DNA of 64,000 nt. It comes from Corynebacterium freiburgense. Lineage in GTDB: Bacteria > Actinomycetota > Actinomycetes > Mycobacteriales > Mycobacteriaceae. Location: NCBI RefSeq assembly GCF_030408815.1, contig NZ_CP047355.1, forward strand, positions 2,604,001-2,668,000. The letters are read 5' to 3'. Below the pieces are notes generated by a model. It was given only the letters and a program-made list of their open reading frames with translations, had not been told where the DNA came from and did not search any database. Position numbers and translations under genes: made by a program. This document shows, piece by piece, positions 19,519-38,054 of the stretch. Position 1 is the first letter of the stretch; every line of letters starts with the position of its first letter.

Positions 19519-21180
<1,662 letters not shown>

Positions 21181-21277
21181 TTATATAGGACGACACTCAC
21201 TTCTTTTGAAACGGGCGCCCGCGACGGCAGGGGTGGCGTGTGAGTGAAGTACCACCCTCACCCGCTTCAACGTTTGA

Positions 21278-21304
21278 TTGGCACTTGCTTATGCAGAGTG
21301 CTAA
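21278..21304 (-). promoter_or_regulatory. CIRCE operator (HrcA site) of groEL
   Basis: On the plus strand TTGGCACTT (21278-21286), nine spacer bases, then GAGTGCTAA (21296-21304). The family consensus is TTAGCACTC-N9-GAGTGCTAA; one arm is perfect and the other has two changes. It lies 116 bases before the groEL start and 36 bases after the stop of the preceding operon. Heat-shock control by HrcA is inferred. Confidence 0.9.
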
Positions 21305-21339
21305 GTCCGTTTTTAGCAGTCACTGTGCTCGTGTGCAAC

Positions 21340-21636
21340 CTACCGCAGACTATCCAGGTATGGTTTGAGCGCAGGATCCTCGAATGCAGACAACATTGTC
21401 CCACTACCCCACAACCAAATCATGAGCAGTAATACGCAGATAATGGTGATCACTGCAGTTGCAAATGCAAGTACAAGTTTGCCTACTTTTGAAAGCCCTC
21501 GTTGTTGTTGCGCTGCTTGTGCTTCTTCGAGTTTTTCAATATCGGCTTTCGCCATAGAAGACTCAGGCTGCTGCCAATTACGCTGGTTTTGTTGCTGTTG
21601 GAAGGGGCTTTGGCCCGCAAATGGGTGTTCGGTCAT
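21340..21636 (-). CDS. Small C-terminally anchored membrane protein, last gene of the tubulin/GTPase operon
   Basis: A 98-residue protein with a Gln/Pro-rich start (MTEHPFAGQSPFQQQQ), a charged helical stretch KADIEKLEEAQAAQQQR, one TM segment near residues 57-77, and a short C-terminal tail. The charged segment could form a short coiled coil. Its ATG overlaps the stop of the 48-codon gene (ATGA). The Gln/Pro-rich head resembles in composition the 240-residue membrane protein at the other end of the operon. No family recognised. It may tether cytosolic partners to the membrane. No clear terminator follows before the groEL CIRCE site. Confidence 0.85.
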   Translation of the reverse strand: MTEHPFAGQSPFQQQQNQRNWQQPESSMAKADIEKLEEAQAAQQQRGLSKVGKLVLAFATAVITIICVLLLMIWLWGSGTMLSAFEDPALKPYLDSLR

Positions 21637-21779
21637 TGTAGGCTCCTGCCTTCACGTTCGGGTGGCGTATAGCTCACAAATAGTGCTTCCGTATCCAATG
21701 CTGCTTCTCGACGCCCTCCCTGCTCAGTCTCCACGATTTGGGTTAGGCGTTGACGGGCTTCATCAAACCAATACCTCAC
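21633..21779 (-). CDS. 48-residue charged micro-protein between the GTPase and the membrane protein
   Basis: A GTG-initiated frame of 48 codons that fits exactly between its neighbours. Its GTG overlaps the stop of the GTPase gene (GTGA) and its TGA overlaps the ATG of the 98-residue gene (ATGA). The product is highly charged and probably helical: VRYWFDEARQRLTQIVETEQ, then GGRREAALDTEAL, ending in a short PPE-containing tail. No family is recognised and there is no TM segment. The double 4-base overlap is the main argument that it is translated. It could be a small accessory subunit of the GTPase. It also carries one copy of the TTYTCGACGCC word. Confidence 0.75.
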   Translation of the reverse strand: MRYWFDEARQRLTQIVETEQGGRREAALDTEALFVSYTPPEREGRSLQ

Positions 21780-22855
21780 AGGCTATTTCCATTCATTAAA
21801 TCGAGTCTGCTAAATAAATCACGTAGCGGATCAAGGCAACGAAATGGCGCGATACCACTGCGGCTAATTTGGTCTCCATCGGGCGGTGCCCCCAATGCGG
21901 AAACTGCAAAACACTGAAAGCGATATGGTTCGACACCGTACATGGGCTGGCGCAATTGATTAATGAGCTGGGTGGCGCCAAGGCAATCTAAGAGACTCAA
22001 TACTTCAAAATGCAAAAGTAGGCTGTTATCGTTATTAAACTTTTCGGTGATCGCCGAGTTTTCTCTGCAAAAACCAGCACCAAAGTTATTCATTACTCGC
22101 TGCCAATTAACGCTGCCAGAATAGTATTGGTCTCCTTGATTTACATCGGCAAGACGCTGCATTGTATCGAACTTTGAAAGCGCCAAAGCAATATCAGGAC
22201 GATGTTCCGCCCCCAAAACACGTAAAACATTCTGTAAAACCACGGTAGGATCATCGTCCCCAACTTCATGGCGCGGTACCGCGCCAGCCAATAATTGTTG
22301 GATACGTGGCACAGCCATAGGATCAAAAAGGAAGATAATCCGGTCGGCGTAGCGGAAAAACGATAAATCATCTTTCCGGCTAAAAAAGTTTTCTTCTTTC
22401 AGATCTTCACCAGCAACATCGCGAAAAACCACAAATATTTTTTGGCGCACACCGTCACGTTGATGCATACCAATATCAAAGATAAGCGGGCGTCGTTGGT
22501 GTGCATCCGCTGATGCTGCAGAAGGCGTCGATTGCAGCAAGCCCATTTGTTTAAACAGTGGCTGCTCGTATTTTTCCTCGTAGGTACGCCGAGTGTGTTC
22601 ATCGGCAGGGCTAAAAATCCCATTATTGGCAATAGCCAATTGCTTCAGCAATTTTACTACCACGGCGATATACAGGCTTTTTCCAGAAGCACGGGCTCCC
22701 GCCATAGCAAAAGTAATTGTTCCGGAGCCTTGCCAACCCTCAGGCAGTGGAGACTCTTCCGGATTGGAAACAAATGGTGATGTCGTGGCATCGGGATCCA
22801 TCCGTTGGAACGTATACGGACATTTCGTGTCCAATTGCCCTCTATAAGGTTCCAT
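21776..22855 (-). CDS. TRAFAC-type GTPase (double-GTPase 2-like)
   Basis: A 359-residue P-loop protein. G1 is GARASGKS at residues 53-60, G3 is DVAG at 146-149 within VVFRDVAGEDL, and SKFD at 227-230 fits the base-reading G4 motif, so GTP is the likely nucleotide. The segment RYADRIIFLFDPM after G3 is typical of TRAFAC GTPases. I recall such proteins being named DO-GTPase2 in conflict-system surveys, with GAP1-like partners. The GAP1-like gene two positions upstream supports this. There is no membrane segment. It starts directly after the vWA stop (TAAATG) and ends over the start of the 48-codon gene. Target unknown. Confidence 0.85.
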   Translation of the reverse strand: MEPYRGQLDTKCPYTFQRMDPDATTSPFVSNPEESPLPEGWQGSGTITFAMAGARASGKSLYIAVVVKLLKQLAIANNGIFSPADEHTRRTYEEKYEQPLFKQMGLLQSTPSAASADAHQRRPLIFDIGMHQRDGVRQKIFVVFRDVAGEDLKEENFFSRKDDLSFFRYADRIIFLFDPMAVPRIQQLLAGAVPRHEVGDDDPTVVLQNVLRVLGAEHRPDIALALSKFDTMQRLADVNQGDQYYSGSVNWQRVMNNFGAGFCRENSAITEKFNNDNSLLLHFEVLSLLDCLGATQLINQLRQPMYGVEPYRFQCFAVSALGAPPDGDQISRSGIAPFRCLDPLRDLFSRLDLMNGNSL

Positions 22856-23791
22856 TTATTTCTCTCCCGTAAGAGTCTTTAACATGGTCTCTGTTTCCCG
22901 CGCAAGAATATCGCTGCGGTTGCTTTGAACGGCCTGTATTAGGGCGGCGTCGAAAAGCGTATATGTAGCTCCGGTATAGATTGGTTGACGCGGCGTCAGC
23001 ACATGTACGGCATCTCGGCCACTCAATGCTGCTGGAATATCATCGGAAATAATGACCAGGGCGTCTTGAGGATCAATAGTATCCATATCTAAGTTCCAGC
23101 CAGCCTCTGTAAATTGGAAATTCCGAGACGGTATGGACTCAACATCATTGCTATGTATCACCGTCGGACGTGCATTTGCCGAACTGGTGCAGAAACTAAT
23201 CCGCCGATCTGCAGCGGCAACTGCCAAAACTCCGCTAGCAAACTGACACATCGCTATAAATTGCTCTTGTTTGAGCGAGCGCCCCATAGAAGTGCTCACA
23301 TCCAAAATCAAAGTAGTATTGCGCTTCCGAGTATCCGAAAGGGATTCAACGCCTACCGTTGAGCGGGCTACAGAGCGAATTTCACTCGATGTAGAGTCCA
23401 GTCCAACATCTTCAGAGAGCTCCGCAGCCTCTAAAACCAACCCTGCTGGCGTTATAGTTAACGATCCCAAAGTAAACGTCGAAAGATTCGATACATCGAA
23501 CGGCGGAAAATCTATTTGAAGATCATTTTCACGCTGTTCTTCAAGTAACGTCAACGACACAAACAGGGTTGTTCGCGAAGGAAAATACTCACCCTCCGGC
23601 GTCACGATAATCTTTGTGGTGTCCACGAGATTCCGGGTGGCGATTCTATTACCGCGGCGTCGAGAATCAACCCCAGGAACGGAAAACTGGAACCCACAAT
23701 CATTGCTGGTACTCACCGAGAATTGTGCATTTAATTCAGAAATACCTTCAACAACATACCGTTGCCCAGGAGTCAGCTTTTTAGCTAGCAC
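22856..23791 (-). CDS. Cytosolic von Willebrand factor A-domain protein
   Basis: A 311-residue protein with a beta-rich N-terminal half (about 1-150) and a vWA domain. The domain starts at TTLILDVSTSMGRSL, whose D-x-S-x-S (164, 166, 168) is a complete MIDAS metal site; DALVIISDD gives a later acidic strand. There is no signal peptide or TM segment. The GTG start overlaps the previous stop by seven bases and has GGAG seven bases upstream. MIDAS-type vWA domains bind a partner's acidic residue through Mg2+, so this is likely an adaptor inside the complex formed by the neighbouring proteins. The binding partner is not known. Confidence 0.87.
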   Translation of the reverse strand: MLAKKLTPGQRYVVEGISELNAQFSVSTSNDCGFQFSVPGVDSRRRGNRIATRNLVDTTKIIVTPEGEYFPSRTTLFVSLTLLEEQRENDLQIDFPPFDVSNLSTFTLGSLTITPAGLVLEAAELSEDVGLDSTSSEIRSVARSTVGVESLSDTRKRNTTLILDVSTSMGRSLKQEQFIAMCQFASGVLAVAAADRRISFCTSSANARPTVIHSNDVESIPSRNFQFTEAGWNLDMDTIDPQDALVIISDDIPAALSGRDAVHVLTPRQPIYTGATYTLFDAALIQAVQSNRSDILARETETMLKTLTGEK

Positions 23792-25911
23792 GTGATCTCT
23801 CCTTTACGTTCAGCAATAAATGTGGCAAGCCTAGCAATGGAATGCTGCGCATATGGCGCAATCAACAGAGTATTCGGGCTCGCAGCAACCCAAGCTAATA
23901 ATTTGTCCACTGCAGCAAAAACATTCGATTTATCGGCGGAGGCCGCAAGATAATCCGGCCAAATCACGGAAGAAAATAAACTATGGAGCTCAGAATCATC
24001 CATTGGAATATCCTGCCAGGAAATTCCATGTACCAGCGTATGCAGTAGCATGTCTAAAATCTCGCGCTCGGTTGCGGAGTCATTACTAAACAGCGGAGCA
24101 ACCTGCGAAAATGGAACGAATACGCTAACCAGCCGCACAATGGCATTACGGAACTCCTCGCAAGTATCAAAGGCTTTCGGCAGGTTCCATAACATCGTTT
24201 GAAATTCTTCTTCACAAAGCACAGGCACAATATCGCCAAGAAACCTTGATGTATCTAATAACGCCAAAACATCATTGTCTTGGCGCAAATAATCTATCCA
24301 TGTTTGAAAGCCGGTGTCCTGTAACCCCTCACCTACTTGTTCCCACAATGCAGTAAGCTCATCACCACTATCCGGCAAAATATACGAATACTTGCATTGC
24401 AAACGCGCCATTTCACGAAACAAAGTCGCATATTCAAAAGGCGCTGCAGCACCGAGTCCCTCCTGCCGAATCCTTGCGGCAATCTCCGTAAGTTGGAGCT
24501 GCAGAGATGGTGCTTTAGCGAAGCCCAATTGCTGCGCTGCTACAGGATGAATCGTGGCTCCCGGCGCGCCCAGCCAATCCTGTGCAAACGCCCCATAAAG
24601 ATCAAAGCGACGCTGCCAAGCAACCGTTAAGGCCGGCGCACATACCAAGTTTTCCAAGCTCGTTAGAGTGCATAACCACACAAAAACATCGCCATTGTTT
24701 GCAATGAGCTGGCTATATACTGAAGTGCACAGTTGTTCTACACTCACAACACCGGAACGCACACCATATTCTAGCCATCGCACAAATAACTCACCGCGAA
24801 GATCCTGCGCTAATGCCAGTTCAGGCACTTGCGTTAGAATTCCCGCAAAACGCTCTTTATCATCTTCTAACAGCGGCAATGGTTCCGGAAACTCATGTGC
24901 CAACCACATTGGATCTGTAAACGCTGATACTAACGTCACCTTAGCAAACTGCCGCGCAAGGGAGACGGTCGCGACGTCGAAACTTTGTTGTGATTCCAAT
25001 ACGAGTTCTGCCAGCCCCGAAGCAAACTCACCCTCACCTTTGTCTTTTGCCCGCAGCTTTTCGACGACCTCGGCCCATGGCGTCCCCCGCAACGCTTGGG
25101 TAAACACACTCCAAGGGGAGGTTGGCTCAATAAACGTACTCGGATCGCTTACGTCCACAATCGGACAATCCACCGACAATATGTGCCGATCATGCACCGG
25201 CACACAACTCACGCAATGTGGCTTTACAACGACCATATCGCCCCGGTCAAAAGTACAAAATCCTAACCCTTTTGCCTGGGAGGGCGCCATAGTCATAGAC
25301 AATGCATACACCCAATACGCTGCCTCCTGCGTAGTTTGAGTTAACAACACTACGGCCCCACGTTCGACAGCATCCTGCAAAGCGTACAGTGCACCCACGC
25401 GATCGCCGAGCATAACATCGACCATAAACCAAGCAACTTCCGGATCCAGCGAACCGCGAGGAAGCTCCCCACCAGCACCTATATCCGCATTATTCACCGC
25501 ATTTGCACGAAATGGGGCCACGAAACCAGGTGAACCATAAAGCTCAATAGGGTAATCCACCGACGAAGGTTGATCTAAGCAATGATCAAACACTGCATGA
25601 GTAAACACATTGCCCGGACGCCCCGTGGCATCTTTACCTGCCGGTACCGAATGCATATAAATACCGGAACCATGCAGTGCATCAGGAAGAAACTCAAAGC
25701 GACGCGGCAATTGGTCGATTTCGTCTTGGCTAATAAAATCATTGAATGCTTCCACTGGAACTAGGCGAGTAGGAGCATGTTCACGCAGCCATTCTGCTTC
25801 CCCAGCATCAATCCCACTGGTAGGACCCAAACGCCAACCCCCACCACCACCATGAGATTTCCGGAAGGAAGCGTAAGTTGCATGAGCCCAACGATTGTGT
25901 GCCCCGTCCAC
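23785..25911 (-). CDS. GAP1-like (GTPase-associated) protein
   Basis: A 708-residue cytosolic protein. Its N-terminus, TYASFRKSHGGGGGWRLGPTS, then LPRRFEFLPDALHGSGIYMHS, then VPAGKDATGRPGNVFTHA, matches what I recall as the GAP1-N2 domain. That domain occurs in operons with TRAFAC GTPases and is predicted to regulate them. The remaining 500 residues are mostly helical with no motif I can name. The start is a GTG because no ATG precedes the conserved segment. GGAGG lies in the last codons of the upstream gene. Two genes downstream is the GTPase. A role as GTPase regulator or nucleotide-sensing hub is inference from family context. Confidence 0.8.
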   Translation of the reverse strand: MDGAHNRWAHATYASFRKSHGGGGGWRLGPTSGIDAGEAEWLREHAPTRLVPVEAFNDFISQDEIDQLPRRFEFLPDALHGSGIYMHSVPAGKDATGRPGNVFTHAVFDHCLDQPSSVDYPIELYGSPGFVAPFRANAVNNADIGAGGELPRGSLDPEVAWFMVDVMLGDRVGALYALQDAVERGAVVLLTQTTQEAAYWVYALSMTMAPSQAKGLGFCTFDRGDMVVVKPHCVSCVPVHDRHILSVDCPIVDVSDPSTFIEPTSPWSVFTQALRGTPWAEVVEKLRAKDKGEGEFASGLAELVLESQQSFDVATVSLARQFAKVTLVSAFTDPMWLAHEFPEPLPLLEDDKERFAGILTQVPELALAQDLRGELFVRWLEYGVRSGVVSVEQLCTSVYSQLIANNGDVFVWLCTLTSLENLVCAPALTVAWQRRFDLYGAFAQDWLGAPGATIHPVAAQQLGFAKAPSLQLQLTEIAARIRQEGLGAAAPFEYATLFREMARLQCKYSYILPDSGDELTALWEQVGEGLQDTGFQTWIDYLRQDNDVLALLDTSRFLGDIVPVLCEEEFQTMLWNLPKAFDTCEEFRNAIVRLVSVFVPFSQVAPLFSNDSATEREILDMLLHTLVHGISWQDIPMDDSELHSLFSSVIWPDYLAASADKSNVFAAVDKLLAWVAASPNTLLIAPYAQHSIARLATFIAERKGEITC

Positions 25912-25915
25912 GGCC

Positions 25916-28210
25916 TTATGATCCTCCTTGCTGGTGGTGGGCGTGTGCCCGACGCGCTAACTCATCAACCATAAGACGGCCAACATGCGGATCCTGCAAT
26001 GCGATAGCCCGACCATCGGATCCAAACTGTTCATGGCTAAAAAGCCGAATAAATCCACCGCGGCCAAATTCAAATAACTGCGGATCAACCTCCCAATATT
26101 CCACCGTTTTCTCCGGGTATAGCTCCGTGGCATGAATACCAGGTAAAAACACGGAATTTGCATTTTGTGGACTGTGCTTTCGGGTTTTTACCTCTAACCC
26201 ATCACCTGCCTCTAAAGGCAACCGATGCTGCTGAAACCGCAGCGTAAATGAACGAGAAACTTGCTCTGGATACTCTGCATATAACAGCACATACACCCGT
26301 CCCTCGTGAGGATAAATGTTATATGCCAAACGCGTTACGCCTGCGTAGTGCAGTTGAGTCTCTTCACCCCAAATAATCTCACCACGATGATGTACAGATG
26401 GCACAAGATAAATATCTCCGGGGGTTCGTAATGATAAACGCATACCACCTTCAGCCTGGTATGTTTGCGCATCTATTGCCGCTAATTGCTCGCGTTTCGC
26501 ACCGGTGCCTAAAAACGCAGTTACCTCATGCGCATTTCTTGGCCAACCAAAGGTGACCAGTTGGTTTACCACCCGTTCTCGGATAAATTGATTTGTCACT
26601 TCGCCCACCCGCACCTGCGAATGAGATTGTCCAACCATACATTTATCACCGACAACAGATACTGGGGTTAGATAGATTGTGAACCAATCAACGGGCCACG
26701 CAACAGTGCAGTGGTTTTCTCCACGCTCCAAATCATTGGCCCAATCACGCTGCGATAATCCATAATCCTCTAAATGCGCAAGGTCAATAATCTTTCCACT
26801 TAACCCATCTTCTGGCGCATTTTGCGTCCGGTACAAACGCACTTCTCCGGAACTCGGGTTTTCCCAAGAAATATCAAAACGTACATCGCCTTCGATGTCT
26901 GTACGAACTACACGTATATCTACTTGTGAGACCTCAGCTGGCACATCAATCGATTGCTCTTGAGAAGGACGTGAAGAAACCACCGAATTACGTAAGCGAA
27001 CCTGTCGCTGCACAATAAATTTGTAGGAAACACCGCGCTGGTCTGGAATAAAACGAAAACCTTGCAAATTCTGTTTTGATAATTCGATTTCGTTTTTCGG
27101 TTTAAATGTCACCCGATCTTTATCGGTTGCTCGGTACACAGCTACACGATATGTCCCACGTTTCGGTGACCACTGACCACAAATCTCTCCACCAGCAACC
27201 GACAGTTCAAGGTCATCCACAGGTTCAATTACGTAGTCTTCACCAACGAAAACTGGTTCAGATTGTAATGCCAGTAACTCAGTCGGCCCAGTATGTACCC
27301 AAACTTGATACATACGAACTGCGCTGGTCAGTGGCGCAGTATCTACCCATACCGAACCGATAGTTACGCACCGCTGCTCGCCGATTTCGGGGTCCAAATC
27401 GAATTCTTCTTCATCACTAATCACCCTAAAAAGCCGAACCTCATTTCCAGAGGGTTTCGGCATTGACCATTCGATATGAATGTAGTCGTCTTGTTGGCGG
27501 GCTTTCACGGTCCCAACGGCAACGGGATCCGCAAAACCATCAAGCCTGCGGAAATCCGTAAACACGTAGTCCCGAAAATCCGCTTCATTGACCCTAAAAG
27601 AATCTTGCTGGTCTATACCTACAGGTGGTGCAGGACTCTGGGCGGGAGGTGGTGGTGGAGGTGACGGAACATCAGCAACCTTAGGCGGTTGGGGCGTCGA
27701 TACTGACACCGATGGTTCTGGAACCGCGGTAAGTGAAGGCTTCGGCGGTTCAGGTACCGGCGTCGTGAAAGCTGGGGGTTGTGCTGGCGCCGATGGTCGT
27801 AATGAATCACGCCGCATTTGCAGAGTTTCATGAACGTGCCGCTGTGGCGGGGCAGGCGGCGATGTTTGTTGCGTTGGTTGAAACACCGTTCGCGGCGGAT
27901 TATGCCTTGGTCGCGATACTTCTGGGCTTGGCCAAACCCCCGCTTCAAGCACAGGAGTGAAAAGCAATGCTTCAGGGAGTTTCTCAAAGCCATGAGCATT
28001 ATCAGTATCCACCAATGCCCTGATCATCGTAAGCGGTTTATTCCAAACATTCACCAACGGAGCAGCATTTTCTTTACGGAGCAATGTGGTATTAAGGGCC
28101 ACTTCTTTTAGCTGATCAATTGTAGGTAATTGCTCGTCTGTAAATTGGCTCGCAGCACGCTGCCGCCAACGCAAATACAAATCGAAAACAATCTCCGCCC
28201 TTGTAGCCAT
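25916..28210 (-). CDS. Large beta-rich fibronectin-like protein with proline linker
   Basis: A 764-residue protein without signal peptide or TM segment. Residues 1-90 are helical (RAEIVFDLYLRWRQRAASQF). Residues about 110-215 are a Pro-rich linker with PPPPPP. Residues 240-730 are beta-rich with several repeats of fibronectin-III or Ig style, for example YIHIEWSMPKPSGNEVRLFRV and the related VRFDISWENPSSGEVRLYR. The two quoted stretches show internal duplication (W-x-x-P-x-SG-EVRL). The ATG overlaps the previous stop (TAATG). It is probably a scaffold in the complex. I cannot assign a named family. Confidence 0.8.
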   Translation of the reverse strand: MATRAEIVFDLYLRWRQRAASQFTDEQLPTIDQLKEVALNTTLLRKENAAPLVNVWNKPLTMIRALVDTDNAHGFEKLPEALLFTPVLEAGVWPSPEVSRPRHNPPRTVFQPTQQTSPPAPPQRHVHETLQMRRDSLRPSAPAQPPAFTTPVPEPPKPSLTAVPEPSVSVSTPQPPKVADVPSPPPPPPAQSPAPPVGIDQQDSFRVNEADFRDYVFTDFRRLDGFADPVAVGTVKARQQDDYIHIEWSMPKPSGNEVRLFRVISDEEEFDLDPEIGEQRCVTIGSVWVDTAPLTSAVRMYQVWVHTGPTELLALQSEPVFVGEDYVIEPVDDLELSVAGGEICGQWSPKRGTYRVAVYRATDKDRVTFKPKNEIELSKQNLQGFRFIPDQRGVSYKFIVQRQVRLRNSVVSSRPSQEQSIDVPAEVSQVDIRVVRTDIEGDVRFDISWENPSSGEVRLYRTQNAPEDGLSGKIIDLAHLEDYGLSQRDWANDLERGENHCTVAWPVDWFTIYLTPVSVVGDKCMVGQSHSQVRVGEVTNQFIRERVVNQLVTFGWPRNAHEVTAFLGTGAKREQLAAIDAQTYQAEGGMRLSLRTPGDIYLVPSVHHRGEIIWGEETQLHYAGVTRLAYNIYPHEGRVYVLLYAEYPEQVSRSFTLRFQQHRLPLEAGDGLEVKTRKHSPQNANSVFLPGIHATELYPEKTVEYWEVDPQLFEFGRGGFIRLFSHEQFGSDGRAIALQDPHVGRLMVDELARRAHAHHQQGGS

Positions 28211-30957
28211 TAGAATTCTCCCTCACCAGGCATGTCTTGCTTATTTACCCGTGGCATCTGATAATCCTGCGGAATAGCCCAATCATCGTCAGAAGTCGGT
28301 GGCACGGGGGCGTTTTGCGGCTCAACTTTTATGCGCTGTGGTGTTATAACCCGAATATCTCCCGCCCGCGCCGGTCGTCCTATTTGTACAAGCACTTCAC
28401 TAACGCCAATGGCATCAAGCTCGGATCCACCTTCTTGCAAAAAGAAACGATCCACTGTTTCAACACCATGAACACGACCAGCTTCTGTAATAAATTCCGC
28501 ATTAAACGAGCCTTGGTGCACGGAGCTGCTTAATTGTTGTAGCTTTGGCACCTGCGTTTTCTCACCGCCGCGGCTGATTTGTACAGGTTGCAGAATATCC
28601 CCCCGCTCAATACGCACAACATCTTTGAGTTGTTTCGTAATAGCATTCCATTCATCCGTGCTGCGATCCACAAAGTTATATTGTGGGCTCGACATAAGGT
28701 GAGCCATGCGGTCCAAGGCCGTACCAGTACCGCGGCCTGTAAGTGCATGCATATTCTCGGTACGAATCGGAATACCCTCTTGTTGCTCCAATTGTGCGGT
28801 AGCAGCCCCACGGGCTTCCTGTACATGTGATTGCATCCAACCTTGATGGTAAAGGTTTTCGCGGAAGCGACGAGCAACGTTTTCAATTACGGCTTCATCT
28901 GGGTTAGCTTCTGCAAGCACGACAGATGCTGGCATATCGTTTACTGGTATTACACCTTCAACTCGATACTGTCGCACTGTTCCAAACGGCTGCTCCATCA
29001 CCGCACCGAGCTGATGTGAAATAGCTACAAATTGGTGGTAGCCAGTCCGGATTCGTTCTTGGGCTTCCACACAAGTGAAATAATTTTTTTCCGCCGCTTC
29101 AATTTCACTTACCAATGTGCGTCGGCGATTCAGTATGCGGATTTCATCCCGAGTTTCCAATGCTATTTGGGTGAAGAAAAGCACCATCCACAACACAAAC
29201 CAAACCACTAAAAACGTGGATTTTGTACTAGCTGCAGACATTTCAAATGCCCGCACCCATTGATATACCGGCAAACCTTGCTCATTTACATCACCGCGGA
29301 AGGCCAACCACATTCCAATGAATGCCGCCCAAGACCAAAACGTCACATACCCTAACCAGCGGAGAATGCCAATAAGCAATGCAGCTGTTTTGGGTCCTTC
29401 TTGCCGTTGGTTGCGCAATTGTTCAGCGCGTTGTTTCCATGATTGCGCTTCAGCTTCCAAATCTCGAACAGTGCTTCCGAGCCTTCTGCTTACATTTGCA
29501 GCAAAGCTGTCCGAATGTGTATTTCGCCATTGGCCAAATTCTCCAATAATCCGACCAATATCGCGGTGTTGAATATTGGATTGTTGGGATAAAGTCCGCT
29601 CATAACGTTCGGCTTCCATTAAGTCATACGAGGCAATGGAATCCATATTGAGCATTGCTTTTAGCTGTGGAGGTAAATCATTGCCAAAACGCACTCGGGG
29701 CCCAGGAATAACCACTTGGGCGTCAGGCACAACATACACTGGTTCGGTTTCGCCTTGAGCTACAGCTTTTGGATATCTAGGTAAATTTGATTGCCCAAAT
29801 GGGCGTGGTTTTGCATCGACCATGGTCATTGCCATGTTTTCGTAGCTCTGCCACAGTGGCGCATACTCCCGAGCCACTTGTTCCCTATTCATCCGCTGTT
29901 CGACTATTTGGCGAGGATTTTCCGCTCCGAGCACTGGACCACTGCCAACCTGCACTCTGGAATCGGTGCCATAGAGCGAACTTTGGATTGCTTGACTAGT
30001 TAAATTGCTGAGTTCATCACTACTGTTTCGGAACCATCGAACCGGGGCAGACAAAAGGTTTTTACCAAATCGGCCGAAATACTCCGATGCAGCGCCCGAA
30101 TTTGTTTGCAGCCGAGTGAGTTCGCCAGAACCTTGGCTGCGTGGACCCTTTAATAAAGGTAGATATTCCTGGATTAACTCCTCAGCACATTCCGCATTCA
30201 TAGTGCGGTGATCATTGGTGTATTGAGCCGTAACCTTCCGACCGGAATGCGGCAAAATGGGGAGCGGATTACGCTTTATATCAAAAATGCGTTCTTTGAG
30301 TTTTTGCTGAACTTCCTGCCCGTCAATGCGTCGGTAAAAGGTTCGTACAAGGCGGAAAGTTTCGCCATGTCCGGGTTCCATCCGCGCCACAGGAGCTTTA
30401 GAGTGTCCCTCCCAAATGCCAAAAAGACTTGCTATTCCAGTGGCGCAGTGCAACACAAATTTACTCGTGAGTCGCTCATGGACATATGAAATCGGTGTTG
30501 CTTCGGGCCCAATACTGTCTTCCGGGGCGAGCATCAGGTTAATGTAACCACGAAGTATTGGGAGTTCACCTGCTGTTGGCGTATTAACTGCCGCGATCAT
30601 AAGGTTAGCGCGCTGTGCGCGTTGGCCAATTCGGACGGCGTCGATAGCTTCTATAAATGGCGCAAGATTTTCGCTGGACATAGTGCCCTGCGGCGTCGAT
30701 ACGTCATTAATCACCCCAACCATAAGGCGCTCCGCACGCGAACGAGTCAGAGCCTCATTAAGGGGCATTTGCTGCACGGTTGTTGTGCCATCAGGCGCGG
30801 TAACCGCACAACTCGTCATCGAAGCAGAACTAGTGAAGGTATCGGCATCAACCCAAATGTAGTCGCCCACCAGGTTTAATGCCGCGAGGTCTTCAAGAGT
30901 TTGACGAATCCCAGCGGCCAACGAACCTCGACCAACAAATACAGTGAGACTACTCAT
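28210..30957 (-). CDS. Two-TM protein with MPGEGEF tail, partner of the tubulin-like protein
   Basis: A 915-residue protein with a Rossmann-like start (LTVFVGRGSLAAGIRQTLEDL), a coiled segment before residue 530 (EAEAQSWKQRAEQLRNQR), two TM segments at about 535-555 and 585-610, then a second large cytosolic region. Both soluble parts would face the cytosol. It ends in DMPGEGEF. The preceding gene, for the tubulin-like protein, ends in EMPGEGDF. Its ATG overlaps that gene's stop (TAATG). No family is recognised. It could anchor the tubulin-like protein at the membrane. The shared tail suggests one common binding partner. Confidence 0.82.
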   Translation of the reverse strand: MSSLTVFVGRGSLAAGIRQTLEDLAALNLVGDYIWVDADTFTSSASMTSCAVTAPDGTTTVQQMPLNEALTRSRAERLMVGVINDVSTPQGTMSSENLAPFIEAIDAVRIGQRAQRANLMIAAVNTPTAGELPILRGYINLMLAPEDSIGPEATPISYVHERLTSKFVLHCATGIASLFGIWEGHSKAPVARMEPGHGETFRLVRTFYRRIDGQEVQQKLKERIFDIKRNPLPILPHSGRKVTAQYTNDHRTMNAECAEELIQEYLPLLKGPRSQGSGELTRLQTNSGAASEYFGRFGKNLLSAPVRWFRNSSDELSNLTSQAIQSSLYGTDSRVQVGSGPVLGAENPRQIVEQRMNREQVAREYAPLWQSYENMAMTMVDAKPRPFGQSNLPRYPKAVAQGETEPVYVVPDAQVVIPGPRVRFGNDLPPQLKAMLNMDSIASYDLMEAERYERTLSQQSNIQHRDIGRIIGEFGQWRNTHSDSFAANVSRRLGSTVRDLEAEAQSWKQRAEQLRNQRQEGPKTAALLIGILRWLGYVTFWSWAAFIGMWLAFRGDVNEQGLPVYQWVRAFEMSAASTKSTFLVVWFVLWMVLFFTQIALETRDEIRILNRRRTLVSEIEAAEKNYFTCVEAQERIRTGYHQFVAISHQLGAVMEQPFGTVRQYRVEGVIPVNDMPASVVLAEANPDEAVIENVARRFRENLYHQGWMQSHVQEARGAATAQLEQQEGIPIRTENMHALTGRGTGTALDRMAHLMSSPQYNFVDRSTDEWNAITKQLKDVVRIERGDILQPVQISRGGEKTQVPKLQQLSSSVHQGSFNAEFITEAGRVHGVETVDRFFLQEGGSELDAIGVSEVLVQIGRPARAGDIRVITPQRIKVEPQNAPVPPTSDDDWAIPQDYQMPRVNKQDMPGEGEF

Positions 30958-33900
30958 TAAAAGTCCCCTTCACCTGGCATTTCAATAGTATTCGCAGGAT
31001 TTGATGCAGGAGCGAACGGATCCACTGTTGCAGCGGCTCGCGGTGGGCCAGCCGCATAGGCTTTATCCAAAATGCGAATCAATTCTGCACTTACCTGGAC
31101 AACATCTGCGGCGATATCATGAAATACCGGTAGCCGAGCCGCAAGATTCCTATCTGTAATATCCCCAAACTGGCGATCCGAACTAATATGCAATTGACCC
31201 GCACCTGCTTGCGAAGAAGGAACATATGCTTGAGCATTTTGCCCCTGTTTCTGCAACCATTCCTTCGCTGCGGCTAACCGGTCCTCAGGCGCTACTGAGG
31301 CTTCCGTGCCAGGAATCTGGTGAATTTCGCCAGATTTACGCTCACCGCTAAAGAGCCATTGCTGTAACAACCTTTGGGCCTGAAGCGTCCGGTTTTCATT
31401 CGCAGGTTGATCCTCAGAATCATAGAGCTTCCGTAGCAGAACATATGGCCGGATCGACTCAAATAGCGGGTAGTCTCCTACCCTCGCCCATGCCAAAGAT
31501 GCAGATTCAAGTAGGTTCGGCAACCAATCCAGAGTAGAACGGAAACGTGAAACCGGGGTAAGCATTGGAGTGGCAAAATCCACCCACTTCTGCTCACTAT
31601 GGTCATAGACTTGTACGGGTTCATCATCCCGGGCATCCATGGTGCCGGGACAATACACAGTTCCGGTAAGCCTGCCGATATACCAGCCCGCAACCATCGC
31701 ATGCCGTTCTTTATCTGACATAGGTAATGCTGCGGTCAGTGGACGTGCCCGGCGCGCAGCCCAAAATTCTGAGCGATTTCCGGCAGTCCGATCCCACTGC
31801 GCCGCGATTGGAGGCAAAAGAGATTCAAAAACAATAGGCATGTAATTCGGGTACGAACCAAAAATATCAATTGAACGTTCATCACCCTGATTGCTTAATG
31901 CATCACCGAGTGGCTTTGAACGGTCTGCCGGAGCATGGTTTGGATAATCCGCCACGGTTTTTTCCAATAGTGGAGCGATACTATCGCCACCGAATGGAAT
32001 TCGGGAGAAATTAAACGCATAGCTCAGTTCTTTATTGTAAATAGCCTGTACCAATTGGGGATTTACCTGGGCCAATGGAAGCGCATTGGTCATTGCCTCA
32101 GTAAACCGACTCAGTACCTGTTGACGCCTCCGCTCGCGCTCATGCTCAGGCAACGCATCATTAGTCACATACTCTCGCAGTGATGTGGCAATAAACCGGT
32201 GGAAAGAAAAACCAGGGCGCCGGATATACTGGCGGCTACGCTCCAATACCTCAGCCGGTGAAATTTGGAATGCAAAACGAGCCGGGCGCGGGTCACCATG
32301 AATATTCGCTTCTCCTGGAGCAACCGTAAGGTCTCGTGCGATCCAAGATTCTTTAAGGAGCAGAAGATCACGTGGCGCTTGCTCCGCACCGGACTTTGAT
32401 TCCCAATCAGCGCCTATGACGCGTTGCGCCGAAATATAAAGTCCAGACAAGAAATCGACGTCTCCGGTCGATGCATCACGAGCAGATTCAATAATGTCGT
32501 GTTCGAATTGATTCGGGAAAGTTTCCACATCGGTAAGGAACACTTCATTGGCTGCTTGGCTAAAGCGGTCTGGAACACTTGCTTGGCGTTCATCCGGCCA
32601 TAGGTTGGGTACATTTGTTTTAAGTTGGGCAACGCCAAGATCTGGGTCGTTGCTCGCAGCTGCCGCTGATTCGAGTTCACTGTGTGCCCGCCGCATTGTG
32701 GCTTCCAATGGCCCGATAAAGTTCTTAAGGAAATCCTCCAATACTGGAGCAAAAAGACGAGCTATATAGACCACAGCACAACGCCGCAGCTGCGGAATGG
32801 CGTCATCAACAATGCTGCGAATATAGGCCGCATCATCGGTGATTTTGCCTTTATTATTTGCCAGACTTGTTCGCAGTTCTGGCGAAAGTCCAATGCCTAC
32901 CTGGGTGTTTGCCACATTGCGAGCATCTCCAATCATGGATTCTTCAAGGTAGCTTCGCACTTTGGCTAATACGGCGTTTCCATACGGCACGCCGTATTTA
33001 GAAACTTCAACGCGAATCAAATCCAGGAGCTTTTCTTGGATTACTTCACGGCTGGCCCAGTGGTATACGGCCGCATACAGCAAGCCGTCAACATCTTGTT
33101 TTGCGTCTTGATTCACCGACTGTAAAGCCTGCTCGATAGCTGGCAGCCAATCACGTCCCTTCTGGCCAGCTGAACTTGGTATTCGTGCTTCTAGGCGGCT
33201 TCCAATGCGCTGCGCCCACTGATTTATCTCATCTTGGAACGTGTACATAATCCAATTGCCACTCTGCCCAGGCGGCGGCAGGATTACTGCTACTCGGCTA
33301 TGAATTCCATTAAGGTTATTGGTGAGCTTTTCTTCAATTTGAGCATCGCCCGAAGCTGGGTTTGTTGCATCAAAATGGCCTTGGAGCAGCTTTTTTACCG
33401 CAGAACTTGCCAGACGTTGTGCCGCGTACTCCCCATAACGATCCCGCCCCATGGACAGTTGTGCATATCCGTAGGTCCCCCACGGAACGTTTTTTGTTTC
33501 TTCTACGCCCCAAGCAAAACGACTATGGTCCGCCGATAAACCACCTTTATTGCCCAATGTAAAGGAACCAAATCCTTGCATAGCGTTGTGATCAACCATA
33601 AGGGCTGCTAGACCTCGCCCGAGCGCCCGGTAGACAGTTTTGGGTTCACCATTACCTAGTCGAGCGCCTTTTTCACCAGAACGTATGCCCACTGGGAATA
33701 TACGTCCCACAGGAACCTCATCAGTAGCACCTACTGGAACACCGAGTGCTCGGAAGACTCGTACATCTTCATCAGTGGCGGCGCCGAATTGGGCTGCTAC
33801 TAATTCTGCAAACATCGAGAGTGCATTGGGATTTGTGCCAGCCACAGCGTCTGCGGAAAGGCTGGAGAAAATATCAGGTGTCACCATAAATAGCGACGTC

Positions 33901-34553
33901 AATGATGGCGCAAGGCCATCGAGGCCGGTAAGTAGCCTACAAACGTCAATCGCCATTGATGCACCAGCACCACCAGCCATGGAGGATACAACAAACACGA
34001 GTGGTTGTTCGTTACTGGTTTCTCCGGAAAGCTGGGCTCGACCATAGAGTTCGGATCGGAGATCAGAAAGTTCTCTATTGGTTTCGGATTTAAAAAGGAT
34101 GTCCCAGGCTTTGGCAATTTCCGCTTGTACTTCTTTGAGCTTGCTCAAAATCAGCATTCGCCCAATCGCCCGGAATTGGCCAGCTCCTGAGCCCACGACC
34201 GTGGTTTCGGCGGTGGGGTTGCGTAATGCCCAGCTTGCGATTGTCCCCAGTTCGCGCCGTGAACCTAATTGTTGGGACACGGCGGCATCAACCGTTGCGT
34301 AGCGGTCACTGCTTCCGCAGGAAATATAGTGGCCACCTGCTTCAGAAACATTGGGGAGGTTTGGACCTGCTTTTTCCGCAACCGTTGGTACGTCGATACT
34401 TACAAATTGCCAAGCTGCGGGGAGTACAACGTCTTTCGGCGTTGGATACCGTTGCGGCAAACGTTCAGCCAGTGTGGTTTTCAATTGATCCATTAAATAG
34501 GCCAGCGTTTGGGCGCCGGAACCACCACAACCAACGACAAGGACTTTATGCAT
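30957..34553 (-). CDS. Tubulin_2-like protein
   Basis: A 1198-residue protein. The N-terminus VLVVGCGGSGAQTLAYL is a Rossmann nucleotide loop like that of tubulin/FtsZ. VFVVSSMAGGAGASMAIDV, about 190 residues on, fits the tubulin signature region (GGGTGSG-like). This matches the large actinobacterial tubulin-like family. The rest, over 800 residues, is mostly helical and unassigned. There is no TM segment. It ends in TIEMPGEGDF, a tail shared with the next protein. FtsZ also ends in a conserved peptide that binds partners, and this tail may be an analogue. Whether it polymerises cannot be judged. An AGGAG box lies 11 bases before the ATG. Confidence 0.83.
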   Translation of the reverse strand: MHKVLVVGCGGSGAQTLAYLMDQLKTTLAERLPQRYPTPKDVVLPAAWQFVSIDVPTVAEKAGPNLPNVSEAGGHYISCGSSDRYATVDAAVSQQLGSRRELGTIASWALRNPTAETTVVGSGAGQFRAIGRMLILSKLKEVQAEIAKAWDILFKSETNRELSDLRSELYGRAQLSGETSNEQPLVFVVSSMAGGAGASMAIDVCRLLTGLDGLAPSLTSLFMVTPDIFSSLSADAVAGTNPNALSMFAELVAAQFGAATDEDVRVFRALGVPVGATDEVPVGRIFPVGIRSGEKGARLGNGEPKTVYRALGRGLAALMVDHNAMQGFGSFTLGNKGGLSADHSRFAWGVEETKNVPWGTYGYAQLSMGRDRYGEYAAQRLASSAVKKLLQGHFDATNPASGDAQIEEKLTNNLNGIHSRVAVILPPPGQSGNWIMYTFQDEINQWAQRIGSRLEARIPSSAGQKGRDWLPAIEQALQSVNQDAKQDVDGLLYAAVYHWASREVIQEKLLDLIRVEVSKYGVPYGNAVLAKVRSYLEESMIGDARNVANTQVGIGLSPELRTSLANNKGKITDDAAYIRSIVDDAIPQLRRCAVVYIARLFAPVLEDFLKNFIGPLEATMRRAHSELESAAAASNDPDLGVAQLKTNVPNLWPDERQASVPDRFSQAANEVFLTDVETFPNQFEHDIIESARDASTGDVDFLSGLYISAQRVIGADWESKSGAEQAPRDLLLLKESWIARDLTVAPGEANIHGDPRPARFAFQISPAEVLERSRQYIRRPGFSFHRFIATSLREYVTNDALPEHERERRRQQVLSRFTEAMTNALPLAQVNPQLVQAIYNKELSYAFNFSRIPFGGDSIAPLLEKTVADYPNHAPADRSKPLGDALSNQGDERSIDIFGSYPNYMPIVFESLLPPIAAQWDRTAGNRSEFWAARRARPLTAALPMSDKERHAMVAGWYIGRLTGTVYCPGTMDARDDEPVQVYDHSEQKWVDFATPMLTPVSRFRSTLDWLPNLLESASLAWARVGDYPLFESIRPYVLLRKLYDSEDQPANENRTLQAQRLLQQWLFSGERKSGEIHQIPGTEASVAPEDRLAAAKEWLQKQGQNAQAYVPSSQAGAGQLHISSDRQFGDITDRNLAARLPVFHDIAADVVQVSAELIRILDKAYAAGPPRAAATVDPFAPASNPANTIEMPGEGDF

Positions 34554-34581
34554 AGTGTTTGTTTTCTCCTAGTTGATCTTG

Positions 34582-37335
34582 TTAGTTCCACTTAGGGGCT
34601 TCGCCCCAGCCGGGATCAGATTGATTATTTGTTTTGCCGTCCCAGGATGTTCCCCAGGAAGAGGCTGGCTGATCCCACGATTCGCTTGTCGACGCCGCGG
34701 CAGTCGGCGTACCACCAGCAGGTTCCGGTGGTTGTGTACTACGTTGCTGATCAAGCGTTTGTTGGATACGGACAGCAAGCTCAGGTACACGGTCAGTAAT
34801 CGCTTCCTCTAAACTCCGAGCCGATTGCTGATCAATTGGCAGCCGTGGCAAAACAATAAGTTCTAGCTGGCCATGTGCGGCAGCAATAAACCATTCACCT
34901 TGCACTGCCAATGGTAATACCGCCTGGCCATGCAATTGCTTTCCGGATGCACCAACCGAGGGGGCGGATTCCACAACCACCTTTGATTCTGCAAGTGGAT
35001 TCCAGTGGAAACTGCGCACCCGCAACCTATATCCAAGAACGTCGGCGGAGCGGCCGTCGTGAAGCACTTGATTGCGTGACGCCTGATCGAGGTCAATGGT
35101 CGGTGCTGGTGCGCCATCATAACGCACAGAGGCACCTTCAAAACTCAATGCGATTCGCTGAGCACCAAAATACTGCTGCGGAATCCGAGCGGTAAGGAAT
35201 CTGACTAAATACAACAGCCCAAGTGGAATCAAAAGCCCTAAAAGCACCGCCGCCAAAAACGCTAAAGTGAATGCCGTTTTATTGAGTGGAACTGATAAAT
35301 TGCCTGTTGCCTGAACCGGAACCGTAGTTTCCTCACTACCATCCGCACGTGCGAGCGAAACAGGTATGGAACCTGTAACTACACCATCGCGCAATTGTGC
35401 CACTGAAACCTTTACCGGCAATGTTGCCTGCTCGCCTTCGCTGAGCGTAAGAGCCGACGCCGCATCAGTATGTTCACTGGACAACTGAATAGCATCAATA
35501 CCCTCAGGCAGAATCTCCGTCTCCAAGGTACTGCCTGCAGGGACCCAAACCTTGCCGGGGCCAGTCACTGCAATAGGAACAGTTACCTCCGGGGCCTCCA
35601 TAGTAAAACTCACGGCACCAGGCACCACCGGCATATCCTGCCGAGACACCGCAATATCAATCTGGTTTGTCACCGGCTCCAATGCTGTACCAGGACGGCC
35701 ATTCGGTCCAGCGGTCACAATATTGACGCTCGCCTCCAAAGTCCCGGACGTAGGCAAATTAGCTAATGTATCGAGCTGAACCTTTGCTTCCTTACCTTTG
35801 GAAACATCCACCCCGGACAGCAAATCCACACGGCTTCCACCATCTGCAGGAACAAAATCCAAGTTGATCTTGGCATCACCTTGCAATTTCCGAGGCTGCC
35901 TATCAAGGCCAACAAGACTTAGAGCAATCTCCTCATTGCTGCGAGCACTAAGATTTGAAGTAGCCGGTCCTTCTGGCCCATGAAACTGAATCTGTAAATC
36001 CGGTTGAATTTTCACCGAATTAAATACCTTGTGATCTGAGCGATCCTCGCCAAAGCCTTCAAATTGCAGACGCCAAGCCCCGGCCCAGCCACCTGGCTTT
36101 TTAAGTTTCATCTCCCCATCGGCCTGTTGCACTGGGTCATGAGAAGCAGCCCATGTAACTTCGGCCCCTCCAACACTGCTACTACCTTCTCCATCCAGCA
36201 CTAGCTTCGAACCATCCGGCGCAATAAGATTCAGCTTTGCATTTGGCCCAAGGTCATCTTTAGCCAATGCTGTAAACCGAACAGAATCAACTGAATCATC
36301 CAAAACAAATTCAAATGGATCGCTAGCGGCGGTTTCTTCCGAATACACACCCCCATTACCTAGGGCCTGGTGGAAGCTGGCAAATAGACTCCCAACACTA
36401 TCCGCTGGGAAGAACGCCCCATTCGGATCTAGAGTTCCGCATCGAGTGCCAGTACCTTCCGTAATGCCGGCAAATAACTCAAAATTTGATGGATTTTTAG
36501 GATCCGATAAACCAATACCAATATTGGTAATTCCCGCAGAACGGAATTGATCAGTAATGCCGTTTGGTCGACAAACTGCATCTTGGGCGACCTCTTGCCC
36601 CTCTTGCGCAGTTAATGCTCCATCTGTGAATGTAACGAGCATTTTACAGCTGTCTGTGGCTCCAGAACGCGGAAAATCCTGATACGCACCCGCAAAAGCA
36701 TTTGCATAGTTTGTATATTGCTCAGAGGTTCGATCAGCAAAACCCGCGATTGTATTTTTCACGCCCTTGATCGATTGGTCATCTAACTGAACCCACTCGC
36801 CATAAACTGGGTCCGAAAAACCGTTTTTATATTCCTGCCCAAAACCCGCAACACGGATACGAACGTCTACGCCTTCGCTATTGTGCTTTGCCAAAAGCTG
36901 GTTAACAAAACTCTGTGCGGCAGGAACCCTATTATGGCTCGCATCAGCACCAGGAGTATTTGGATCAATATTGCCGTCTTTGACTTGATGAATCAGCGAT
37001 TCAGTTTCATCGATCATCAAAATAACGTCCAGTTGCCCTTTGGATGCCACACACGAACCTAGAGCACTCAAACTCGAATTCCCCGGCGTCGATTGCGCAG
37101 GCACTGTCGGCGTATTGGCTTCAGGCTGCACTGGTGCCACCTGATTCGGAGAAGGCGGTGGCAATATTGGCGCCAAACCTTGCTCTGGAGGTGGCGGAGG
37201 TGCTTGCCCATAGGCCGTATTGAGATTTGCAAATGAGCCGCCGGCTATCGCAATAACTCCCGCACAGCAAATGGCAGCTACGCGCCGCACAAAAACCATA
37301 CTTTTCTCCATTCGCGGCAGTGTAGTTGTGTTCAC
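34582..37335 (-). CDS. Secreted, membrane-anchored vWA protein with cytosolic tail
   Basis: A protein of 917 residues with a signal peptide (VRRVAAICCAGVIAIAGGSFA), an extracellular Pro-rich spacer (PPPPPEQGLAPILPPPSP), and a vWA domain starting LDVILMIDETESL (a D-x-T-x-S type MIDAS). About 350 residues of beta-rich region follow. A TM segment sits near residue 700 (FLAAVLLGLLIPLGLLYLV), followed by a 200-residue cytosolic tail ending in a Trp/Ser/Gly-rich stretch. The GTG at 37335 was chosen for its 4-base overlap with the previous stop (GTGA). An ATG at 37299 with GGAG upstream is a real alternative and still keeps the signal peptide. The topology suits a cell-surface sensor or adhesin coupled to the cytosolic tubulin/GTPase parts. 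Confidence 0.85.
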   Translation of the reverse strand: MNTTTLPRMEKSMVFVRRVAAICCAGVIAIAGGSFANLNTAYGQAPPPPPEQGLAPILPPPSPNQVAPVQPEANTPTVPAQSTPGNSSLSALGSCVASKGQLDVILMIDETESLIHQVKDGNIDPNTPGADASHNRVPAAQSFVNQLLAKHNSEGVDVRIRVAGFGQEYKNGFSDPVYGEWVQLDDQSIKGVKNTIAGFADRTSEQYTNYANAFAGAYQDFPRSGATDSCKMLVTFTDGALTAQEGQEVAQDAVCRPNGITDQFRSAGITNIGIGLSDPKNPSNFELFAGITEGTGTRCGTLDPNGAFFPADSVGSLFASFHQALGNGGVYSEETAASDPFEFVLDDSVDSVRFTALAKDDLGPNAKLNLIAPDGSKLVLDGEGSSSVGGAEVTWAASHDPVQQADGEMKLKKPGGWAGAWRLQFEGFGEDRSDHKVFNSVKIQPDLQIQFHGPEGPATSNLSARSNEEIALSLVGLDRQPRKLQGDAKINLDFVPADGGSRVDLLSGVDVSKGKEAKVQLDTLANLPTSGTLEASVNIVTAGPNGRPGTALEPVTNQIDIAVSRQDMPVVPGAVSFTMEAPEVTVPIAVTGPGKVWVPAGSTLETEILPEGIDAIQLSSEHTDAASALTLSEGEQATLPVKVSVAQLRDGVVTGSIPVSLARADGSEETTVPVQATGNLSVPLNKTAFTLAFLAAVLLGLLIPLGLLYLVRFLTARIPQQYFGAQRIALSFEGASVRYDGAPAPTIDLDQASRNQVLHDGRSADVLGYRLRVRSFHWNPLAESKVVVESAPSVGASGKQLHGQAVLPLAVQGEWFIAAAHGQLELIVLPRLPIDQQSARSLEEAITDRVPELAVRIQQTLDQQRSTQPPEPAGGTPTAAASTSESWDQPASSWGTSWDGKTNNQSDPGWGEAPKWN

Positions 37336-38054
37336 AGCTTGCCTACCCATTGTCCGATTTCTACCGCTGACCACAGGATTCCAAGAATTAAAAGTGTGAT
37401 CGTGCCCCAATACACACCAGTTTTCCAACCAAGAATGGAATAGAAACCAGAAGCACGGCGACGGTTATCTGCATTGAAATACAATCCAAGCAAGGTAACG
37501 CCAAAGATTCCCGCAGCGAGCCATGCCACAACCGACAACACCTTATACATTGCTTCTGTTGGGGTAAAACCACCAAAGGTTAAGATCATTGAAAGAACAA
37601 TGCTGACGACGCCCATCACAATACTGGGCAACAACACATAGGTGGGCGCGGAGTTTTGCTGGAAGGCAGCCACTGGTGGTGGGCCGCTAGCTTGCGGTAC
37701 GGGAGAGGACGAACTTTCCGGAAGCGTATTTGAGCCAAAGCTTTCCCCAAACCCAGAACCCCAGTTGGAATTAGTCTGCGGTTGCGAAGGAGACTGAGTC
37801 TGGTATGAGTCCACTGGCCCAAAACCAGGTGGAGAGAAACCTTGACCGCCTGTATTTTCTTGAAATGAAGGTGCTGCAAAAGATTCTGTTTGCTTTGGGC
37901 GTGATTCACCGCCATCAAAGCCGCCAAATGAGCCGAAACCATTTTCCATGGGCATATCATGTCCTGCCGGGAAATCGGTAAATCCTGGTCGCGAACTATT
38001 ATTTCGGGGATGCGCCTCCTCGAAGCCTCCGAAGTCACTGTTCCGCTCGGACAT
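37332..38054 (-). CDS. Four-TM protein with disordered N-terminus, first gene of the operon
   Basis: A 240-residue protein. Residues 1-120 are low complexity, rich in Gly, Pro, Ser, Gln and Phe (FGSFGGFDGGESRP). Residues 130-240 hold about four hydrophobic segments, the first YVLLPSIVMGVVSIVLSMI. GGAG lies eight bases before the ATG (ATAGGAGAAACGA). The disordered head may bind partners. No named family. It begins the minus-strand run that ends at 21340, and its promoter must lie in the 294-base divergent region before the M20 peptidase. Confidence 0.82.
   Translation of the reverse strand: MSERNSDFGGFEEAHPRNNSSRPGFTDFPAGHDMPMENGFGSFGGFDGGESRPKQTESFAAPSFQENTGGQGFSPPGFGPVDSYQTQSPSQPQTNSNWGSGFGESFGSNTLPESSSSPVPQASGPPPVAAFQQNSAPTYVLLPSIVMGVVSIVLSMILTFGGFTPTEAMYKVLSVVAWLAAGIFGVTLLGLYFNADNRRRASGFYSILGWKTGVYWGTITLLILGILWSAVEIGQWVGKL

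Follow-up and report, generated by a model that had tools for sequence, protein, structure and literature searches.

A conserved tubulin, vWA and GTPase operon of Corynebacterium freiburgense and the co-varying tails of its Tubulin_2 and membrane proteins

Introduction

What connects a surface vWA protein, a tubulin relative, a membrane protein and a GTPase that are encoded together in one operon? The question is raised by a locus of Corynebacterium freiburgense (source genome G000, 2.96 Mb), where ten open reading frames (ORFs), here called A to J, all lie on the minus strand and run from position 38054 to 21340 of the 64,000-nucleotide stretch analysed (the window; contig 1, positions 2604001–2668000). 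We found that the C-terminal tails of the Tubulin_2 protein C and the membrane protein D co-vary across species at the protein level. This is a firm new result, and matching tails that change together suggest, as far as sequence can tell, that C and D work together.

The class is already predicted in print (PMC2875224, PMC7159879), and this locus adds new features to it. Makarova and Koonin (2010) predicted FtsZl1-vWA-GTPase systems and proposed a role in membrane remodelling (PMC2875224), and Kaur et al. (2020) described GAP1-N2 DO-GTPase systems, among them an actinobacterial tubulin theme, framed as conflict systems (PMC7159879). It has stood as a prediction from genomes since 2010, filed under these two functions. 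An initial annotation of the window had mentioned GTPase plus GAP1 sets as proposed conflict systems, and that class is indeed in print; the published tubulin/vWA class (PMC2875224, PMC7159879) was not named there, and a possible tubulin-like D and the matching C/D tails were also missing from it.

Matching tails of C and D

In the source genome the two tails are alike, C ending in ...IEMPGEGDF and D in ...KQDMPGEGEF. Elsewhere the tails change yet still match each other, as in the C/D pairs MPGEDLF/MPGEDLF (locus L067), LNDLDDTF/LSDLDETF (L073) and LPSFGDGLV/LPDFGEGLV (L145). Further pairs are QMPGLD/LKLPGLD (L070), FGSGF/FGEGF (L083), GITGTRA/GAIGTRS (L167), KPRSRA/TPRSRA (L168) and DTTGIL/DPTGIL (L180).

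The match was tested by permuting partners, with 20000 shuffles for the genus set and 5000 for the wider sets. In 25 dereplicated genus loci the mean C-D tail score was 15.1 against −0.1 when permuted (z 7.55, 0/20000), and every other gene pair had a tail z of 1.49 or less. Across 57 loci, dereplicated from 144, the C-D z rose to 13.75 (0/5000), the next of the 28 gene pairs being A-C at 3.34, and 26 loci outside Corynebacterium gave 6.06 (0/5000). Since shuffling ignores relatedness these z values are not probabilities, and the control is the other 27 gene pairs, which share the same relatedness.

When the tail of C was compared with those of all other ORFs (mean 134 per locus), D was the best match in 35 of 58 loci and among the top three in 41. 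The other genes were almost never best: A in 1/55, F in 1/53, and B (0/58), E (0/53), G (0/52) and H (0/42) in none. The last residue of C and D agrees in 39 of 58 loci, with 18.4 expected; the ends are mostly hydrophobic, phenylalanine being last in 31/58 for C and likewise in 31/58 for D. The tail pattern is private to the pair, as 17 of its 20 matches in nine genomes, and both matches in the source genome, are C or D ends. Some loci speak against a general coupling: D is not the best match to C in 23/58, and the two tails are wholly different in L093, L097 and L134. In L076, L093, L198 and L199 (labelled C. amycolatum and C. vitaeruminis, and copies) the linker and tail retained in C are apparently lost from D.

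Could the match merely reflect the Shine-Dalgarno site of an overlapping gene that follows, or gene conversion? The window's C and D tail codons (GGTGAAGGGGAC..., GGTGAGGGAGAA...) do occupy the place required for the ribosome site of the following gene. However, z for the C-D tails is still 7.47 in the 24 loci that have a gap of ≥15 nt at one junction or more, no such match is seen between tails at the other overlapping junctions, and pairs such as LDDTF/LDETF, PRSRA/PRSRA and TGIL/TGIL are unlike ribosome sites. Identical C/D tail residues use the same codon in 73 of 152 cases, against 74.1 expected from codon usage. Because codons are at expectation and gapped loci keep their score, neither ribosome sites nor gene conversion explains the matching; as a general cause the idea is refuted and we regard it as extremely improbable, although a Shine-Dalgarno constraint may still have a part in the G/E-rich tails seen in the C. 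glutamicum group. Alternatively, the shared tail might be a degradation or processing signal for a host protease, or a mimic of the FtsZ C-terminal peptide that binds a SepF-like division protein. The tails are terminal, mostly have a hydrophobic last residue, follow a disordered linker in D and may resemble FtsZ tails. Yet they shift in step between related species, which on our assumption a conserved host reader would not require, and they are private to C and D, leaving this explanation improbable.

Operon layout and protein domains

The ten ORFs and the neighbouring chaperone gene are as follows.

Gene A, 37332..38054, minus strand: 240 aa, the operon's first gene, with a good ribosome site GGATAGGAGAAACGAATG
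Gene B, 34582..37299, minus strand: about 905 aa from the refined start ATG 37299
Gene C, 30957..34553, minus strand: 1198 aa, Tubulin_2 (FtsZl1) domain, tail ...IEMPGEGDF
Gene D, 28210..30957, minus strand: 915 aa, membrane protein, disordered tail ...KQDMPGEGEF
Gene E, 25916..28210, minus strand: 764 aa, cytosolic
Gene F, 23785..25911, minus strand: 708 aa, GAP1-N2 and GAP1-M (Pfam)
Gene G, 22856..23791, minus strand: 311 aa, cytosolic vWA-like, DxSxS motif
Gene H, 21776..22855, minus strand: 359 aa, DO-GTPase2 (Pfam and motifs)
Gene I, 21633..21779, minus strand: 48-aa ORF, weakly supported
Gene J, 21340..21636, minus strand: 98 aa, one transmembrane segment
groEL2, 19519..21162, minus strand: operon neighbour, outside the module

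The longest ORF of gene B spans 34582–37428 (948 aa); its likely start is ATG 37299, which is preceded by a GGAGA ribosome site. All ten ORFs of the initial annotation were found, and six of the nine junctions overlap or abut (C/D −1 nt, D/E −1, E/F +4, F/G −7, G/H 0, H/I −4, I/J −4), with wider gaps at B/C (+28) and A/B (+32 using the refined B start). Genes I and J are weakly supported as genes because I matches at none and J at only 3 of 40 other genus loci.

In protein A a low-complexity N-terminus is followed by about three hydrophobic segments. B begins like a signal peptide, carries a DxTxS motif and crosses the membrane once further on (residues 724–742 in the 948-aa ORF numbering), giving an extracellular vWA-type region, a further ectodomain, the membrane crossing, a cytosolic beta-rich domain and a disordered tail. 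The trans-envelope arrangement first proposed is supported. The tubulin, GAP1 and GTPase calls also pass curated Pfam profiles: Tubulin_2 in C (E 1.9e-52, residues 5–387, with a long remainder C-terminal to the domain), GAP1-N2 (E 7.9e-19) and GAP1-M (E 1.5e-6) in F, and DO-GTPase2 in H (E 1.5e-10; 41.6 bits against a cut-off of 27). H has the P-loop GARASGKS, RDVAGED and SKFD, a TxKD variant. Its key motif residues are conserved across 25 aligned sequences that include the window's H, and D146, G149, E150 and D151 of the Walker B region are invariant among them; a conserved Walker B glutamate is reported for the DO-GTPase of tubulin-theme systems (PMC7159879).

Other calls fared less well. 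The vWA calls hold at motif level, with DxTxS in B and DxSxS in G, and a loose vWA metal-site pattern occurs in 145/147 B and 121/136 G proteins, a motif-level result only; at profile level B has no Pfam match and G reaches VWA_2 only at E 0.09, below the family cut-off. The 'fibronectin-like' label for E has no support from Pfam, no family matching it at E≤1, and the E-type region of a relative's fusion protein gives fn3 only weakly (E 0.023). Kaur et al. describe FNIII proteins of the FNIII/HRDC type in GAP1-N2 tubulin-theme systems (PMC7159879), and E is probably of this type. There was no OmpA family in nine operon proteins at Pfam E≤1, no effector domain (nuclease, NADase, pore or other) and no membrane-remodelling domain by Pfam among the operon proteins, no credible NCBIfam match for them, and no PADLOC-DB model at E≤0.1 for any of the eight proteins A to H.

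Measured against the published FtsZl1-vWA-GTPase systems, the locus likewise combines Tubulin_2/FtsZl1, vWA and P-loop GTPase genes in a single operon; unlike some of them it has no OmpA-like protein or kinase that we could see, an OmpA-like partner being given for several genomes only and not as defining (PMC2875224). The features it shares with the GAP1-N2 tubulin theme are GAP1-N2/M, DO-GTPase2, a single recognised tubulin whose C-terminal region is helical, and a membrane vWA protein with a beta-rich domain, which is B here (PMC7159879). The D family, the C/D tail match, and the B-C-D core and E-H fusions described below are absent from those main-text portions of PMC2875224 that we considered.

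Distribution and gene order

Tubulin_2 is present in 46 of 151 Corynebacterium genomes, with one match in each, and the D family occurs in the same 46 (lists compared by eye). GAP1 was found in 45 of the 46 with the window's F as query, and in the last (G128) GAP1-N2 was detected by profile; presence is all-or-none. In 20-kb loci from 40 of the other 45 positive genomes, every detected gene stood in A-H order on a single strand. A was undetected in three (it lies upstream of B in 37/40) and F in one, and G, initially missed at 21/40, was later recovered by profile. The same order was seen in 20 further loci, 18 of them outside Corynebacterium in the same family. L140 and L141 have an additional weak F match, and L128 (genome G269) has no H within reach of the locus. 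At L128 an insertion of about 2.6 kb interrupts F (around 12806–15414 of the oriented locus), with the upstream genes intact.

Among the best 80 of 219 named loci (10-kb flanks; species overlap with the other loci), 42 read ABCDEFGH, 26 ABCDEFG, ten were shorter and two had an extra match; the 26 probably lack H because the flank stops before it. These 80 include Corynebacterium, Mycobacterium/Mycolicibacterium, Rhodococcus, Gordonia and Williamsia as well as Nocardia, Propionibacteriaceae, Microbacteriaceae and Pseudarthrobacter. The order is kept in many genomes, far beyond chance, and the tubulin and GAP1 calls have profile support; neither outcome that the initial annotation had named as refuting it came about. 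Tubulin_2 becomes rarer farther out: 33 of 251 genomes in a family draw (7 Corynebacterium; 4 weak partial matches), 8/200 in an order draw and 23/345 in a class draw, each draw including the source genome. Six genomes outside Corynebacterium in the family draw give two Tubulin_2 matches (pieces or weak second matches).

In 10/40 genus loci (L074, L075, L077, L078, L080, L081, L090, L092, L096 and L100), all ten belonging to the second C clade, H is followed by a small conserved ORF of at most 181 aa, with a start like MNMTFGGFRNPNQG.

Reduced forms and fusions

Twenty order/class loci were examined, and D was found in seven: by profile in L166, L167, L168 and L178, by profile across two ORFs in L180, by profile for its first half and position for its second in L181, and by position and tail in L179. 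The other 13 (L163–L165, L169–L177, L182) have no D by profile; all have an H-like GTPase match, and they are a different version of the system. In L166 and L167, from two other families of the order, an E-type protein and GTPase H are fused in one ORF.

Three loci (L179, L180, L181) have B-C-D-only forms. GAP1-N2 was found in none of four genomes with such loci (six other genomes matched) and H likewise in 0/4 (controls 4/4), so B-C-D loci without GAP1/GTPase appear to exist, whereas Kaur et al. frame the theme as conflict (PMC7159879). Weighing against a minimal B-C-D core, the form rests on three loci, with D placed by position in L179 and for the second half of L181, and L180 has a weak A match.

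Fold of D

The structural model of D suggests a possible tubulin-like fold interrupted by a coiled-coil/transmembrane insertion, with a disordered C-terminal linker, and the 41 best VIA rows for this model are all tubulin or microtubule entries. D may on this basis be tubulin-like in fold. Kaur et al. give a single tubulin gene in actinobacteria and two in firmicutes (PMC7159879); here D may be the second. Our bolder proposal, held tentatively and at somewhat less than an even chance, is that D is a cryptic integral-membrane tubulin, its fold split by a coiled-coil/transmembrane hairpin and lacking a GTP site, which co-assembles with C. The matching tails would be read by a co-evolving site, the lattice would be built into the membrane and coupled to the outer vWA receptor, and B-C-D would be the minimal unit, with the GAP1/GTPase arm a regulator that some lineages omit.

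Several results weigh against this. Foldseek searches of PDB and BFVD with D gave no match at E≤0.001, and no tubulin was recognisable among the best 50 of 200 rows, the first rows, none of them significant, being helical pore-forming proteins and Rab GTPases. Two profile comparisons of C with D gave probabilities of 3% and <1%. Among 25 of 36 families listed for 22 D proteins there was no Tubulin match. The GGGTGSG-like loop is absent from the D alignment (by eye), and for this reason D is classed only as possibly tubulin-like in fold, not as a tubulin. The Foldseek, profile and family results favour an alternative in which D is a membrane scaffold of the coiled-coil type, its N-terminal domain Rossmann-like and its resemblance to tubulin generic; we place this, too, at somewhat less than even. 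In the literature collection searched, no paper described a tubulin built into a membrane. A D protein of Corynebacterium aquatimens (P0041) is publicly labelled an ABC transporter ATP-binding protein, a name for which we saw no support.

BtubA/BtubB and alpha/beta-tubulin are paired tubulins with C-terminal tails. C and D would resemble them as two tailed tubulins forming a pair, unlike them in that D is membrane-embedded, without a GTP loop and without sequence similarity to C.

Genomic setting

In at least 10 of the 46 positive genomes groEL2 is the operon's neighbour and has the same orientation (eight from the window and the examined loci; coordinates add G046 and G092). In the window it is flanked by groEL2 and an M20 peptidase gene, and in 4/4 system-negative genomes, chosen from 105 for close groEL2 (91.6–94.7% identity), these two genes are adjacent, 209–855 bp apart. 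The operon is gained or lost as a block, and the flanks in the window and the four empty sites are ordinary genes. The C tree agrees poorly with the groEL2 tree, two divergent C versions not following groEL2.

The 177-bp gap before groEL2 (21163–21339) holds TTAGCACTC...AAGTGCCAA, a CIRCE-like (controlling inverted repeat of chaperone expression) element; groEL2 therefore probably has its own promoter, of the HrcA type, plus read-through from the operon. We presume that cg3011 to cg3020 of C. glutamicum are groEL2 and this operon. RNA-seq of that species groups cg3011 to cg3020 in a single operon of ten genes, listed under chaperone and unknown function (PMC3890552), and groEL2 is probably co-transcribed with the operon in this species. 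Gene cg3018 is listed with a value of 1.22 after ciprofloxacin (PMC5055667). Elsewhere in the window, 12799–16605 encodes a 1268-aa protein with AMP-binding, phosphopantetheine and hexapeptide-repeat domains, which is also present near groEL2 in two system-negative relatives (L295, L296).

A possible trans-envelope machine

We give an even chance to A-H forming one trans-envelope machine. B would face outwards as a vWA receptor or adhesin and have one domain in the cytosol, and the tubulin-like C and the integral membrane protein D, which may itself be tubulin-like, would assemble on the inner face of the cytoplasmic membrane. Their tails, on flexible linkers, would dock on a common lineage-specific site, either the cytosolic part of B or C/D themselves. 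E, F, G and H (adaptor, GAP1, vWA and GTPase) would act as a GTP-controlled switch that assembles, disassembles or couples the lattice. The output would most likely act on the envelope, mechanically or by organising it (in surface adhesion, in pili or motility, or in envelope shape), rather than being a toxin; co-assembly, tail partner, switch and output are steps that we infer. Integrin-cytoskeleton coupling joins an outer metal-site vWA domain, through one transmembrane segment, to a cytosolic polymer. The layout of B and C may be likened to it, by analogy only and with no homology claimed. The only Tubulin_2 gene mutant that we found is in Synechocystis, where mutation of sll0445 impairs phototaxis and a pilus-complex association is putative (PMC9880817). 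This Tubulin_2 protein also sits within a gene cluster, sll0445-sll0447; against the parallel, Synechocystis is distant and the neighbours are described as FtsA-like and DivIC-like (PMC9880817).

We favour a tubulin scaffold that is attached to the membrane and coupled to an outer receptor; defence is its main rival. In an anti-phage or anti-competitor system, B or G would sense the invader, GTPase/GAP1 would set a threshold and the tubulin would be a multimeric effector. Kaur et al. assign the tubulin theme of actinobacteria to the conflict systems (PMC7159879), and two Rhodococcus megaplasmids (NZ_CP113952.1, NZ_CP110470.1; 1.1–1.4 Mb) encode a C relative at 37% identity. Patchy presence, gain or loss as a block and poor congruence with groEL2 also fit an accessory or conflict system and count against the scaffold. 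However, no phage record matches C, no PADLOC model or Pfam effector domain was found, the flanking genes are ordinary, each positive Corynebacterium genome has a single Tubulin_2 match, and the GAP1/GTPase trigger is apparently missing from the B-C-D forms. We consider conflict unlikely, and of the larger machine for defence, sensing or secretion first suggested for this locus, the trans-envelope layout stands while defence has found no support in PADLOC or Pfam. A further account, which Makarova and Koonin argued from genome context, has C drive membrane remodelling or vesicle biogenesis, here with no special role for the D tail; in the printed review of their paper a referee points to C. 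glutamicum cgR_2627, a vWA protein with a signal peptide (PMC2875224). This account leaves the C/D tail co-variation unexplained, and no membrane-remodelling domain is seen by Pfam; we find it somewhat less likely than conflict as a full account, and largely compatible with the scaffold.

Significance

The module is real, widespread and rigid in order. The tail that changes together in tubulin C and membrane protein D is a concrete handle on how the parts of this class connect, and the operon of C. glutamicum makes the C/D connection testable in a harmless and tractable strain. The membrane tubulin is the bold part: should D indeed be tubulin-like, it would represent an integral-membrane tubulin.
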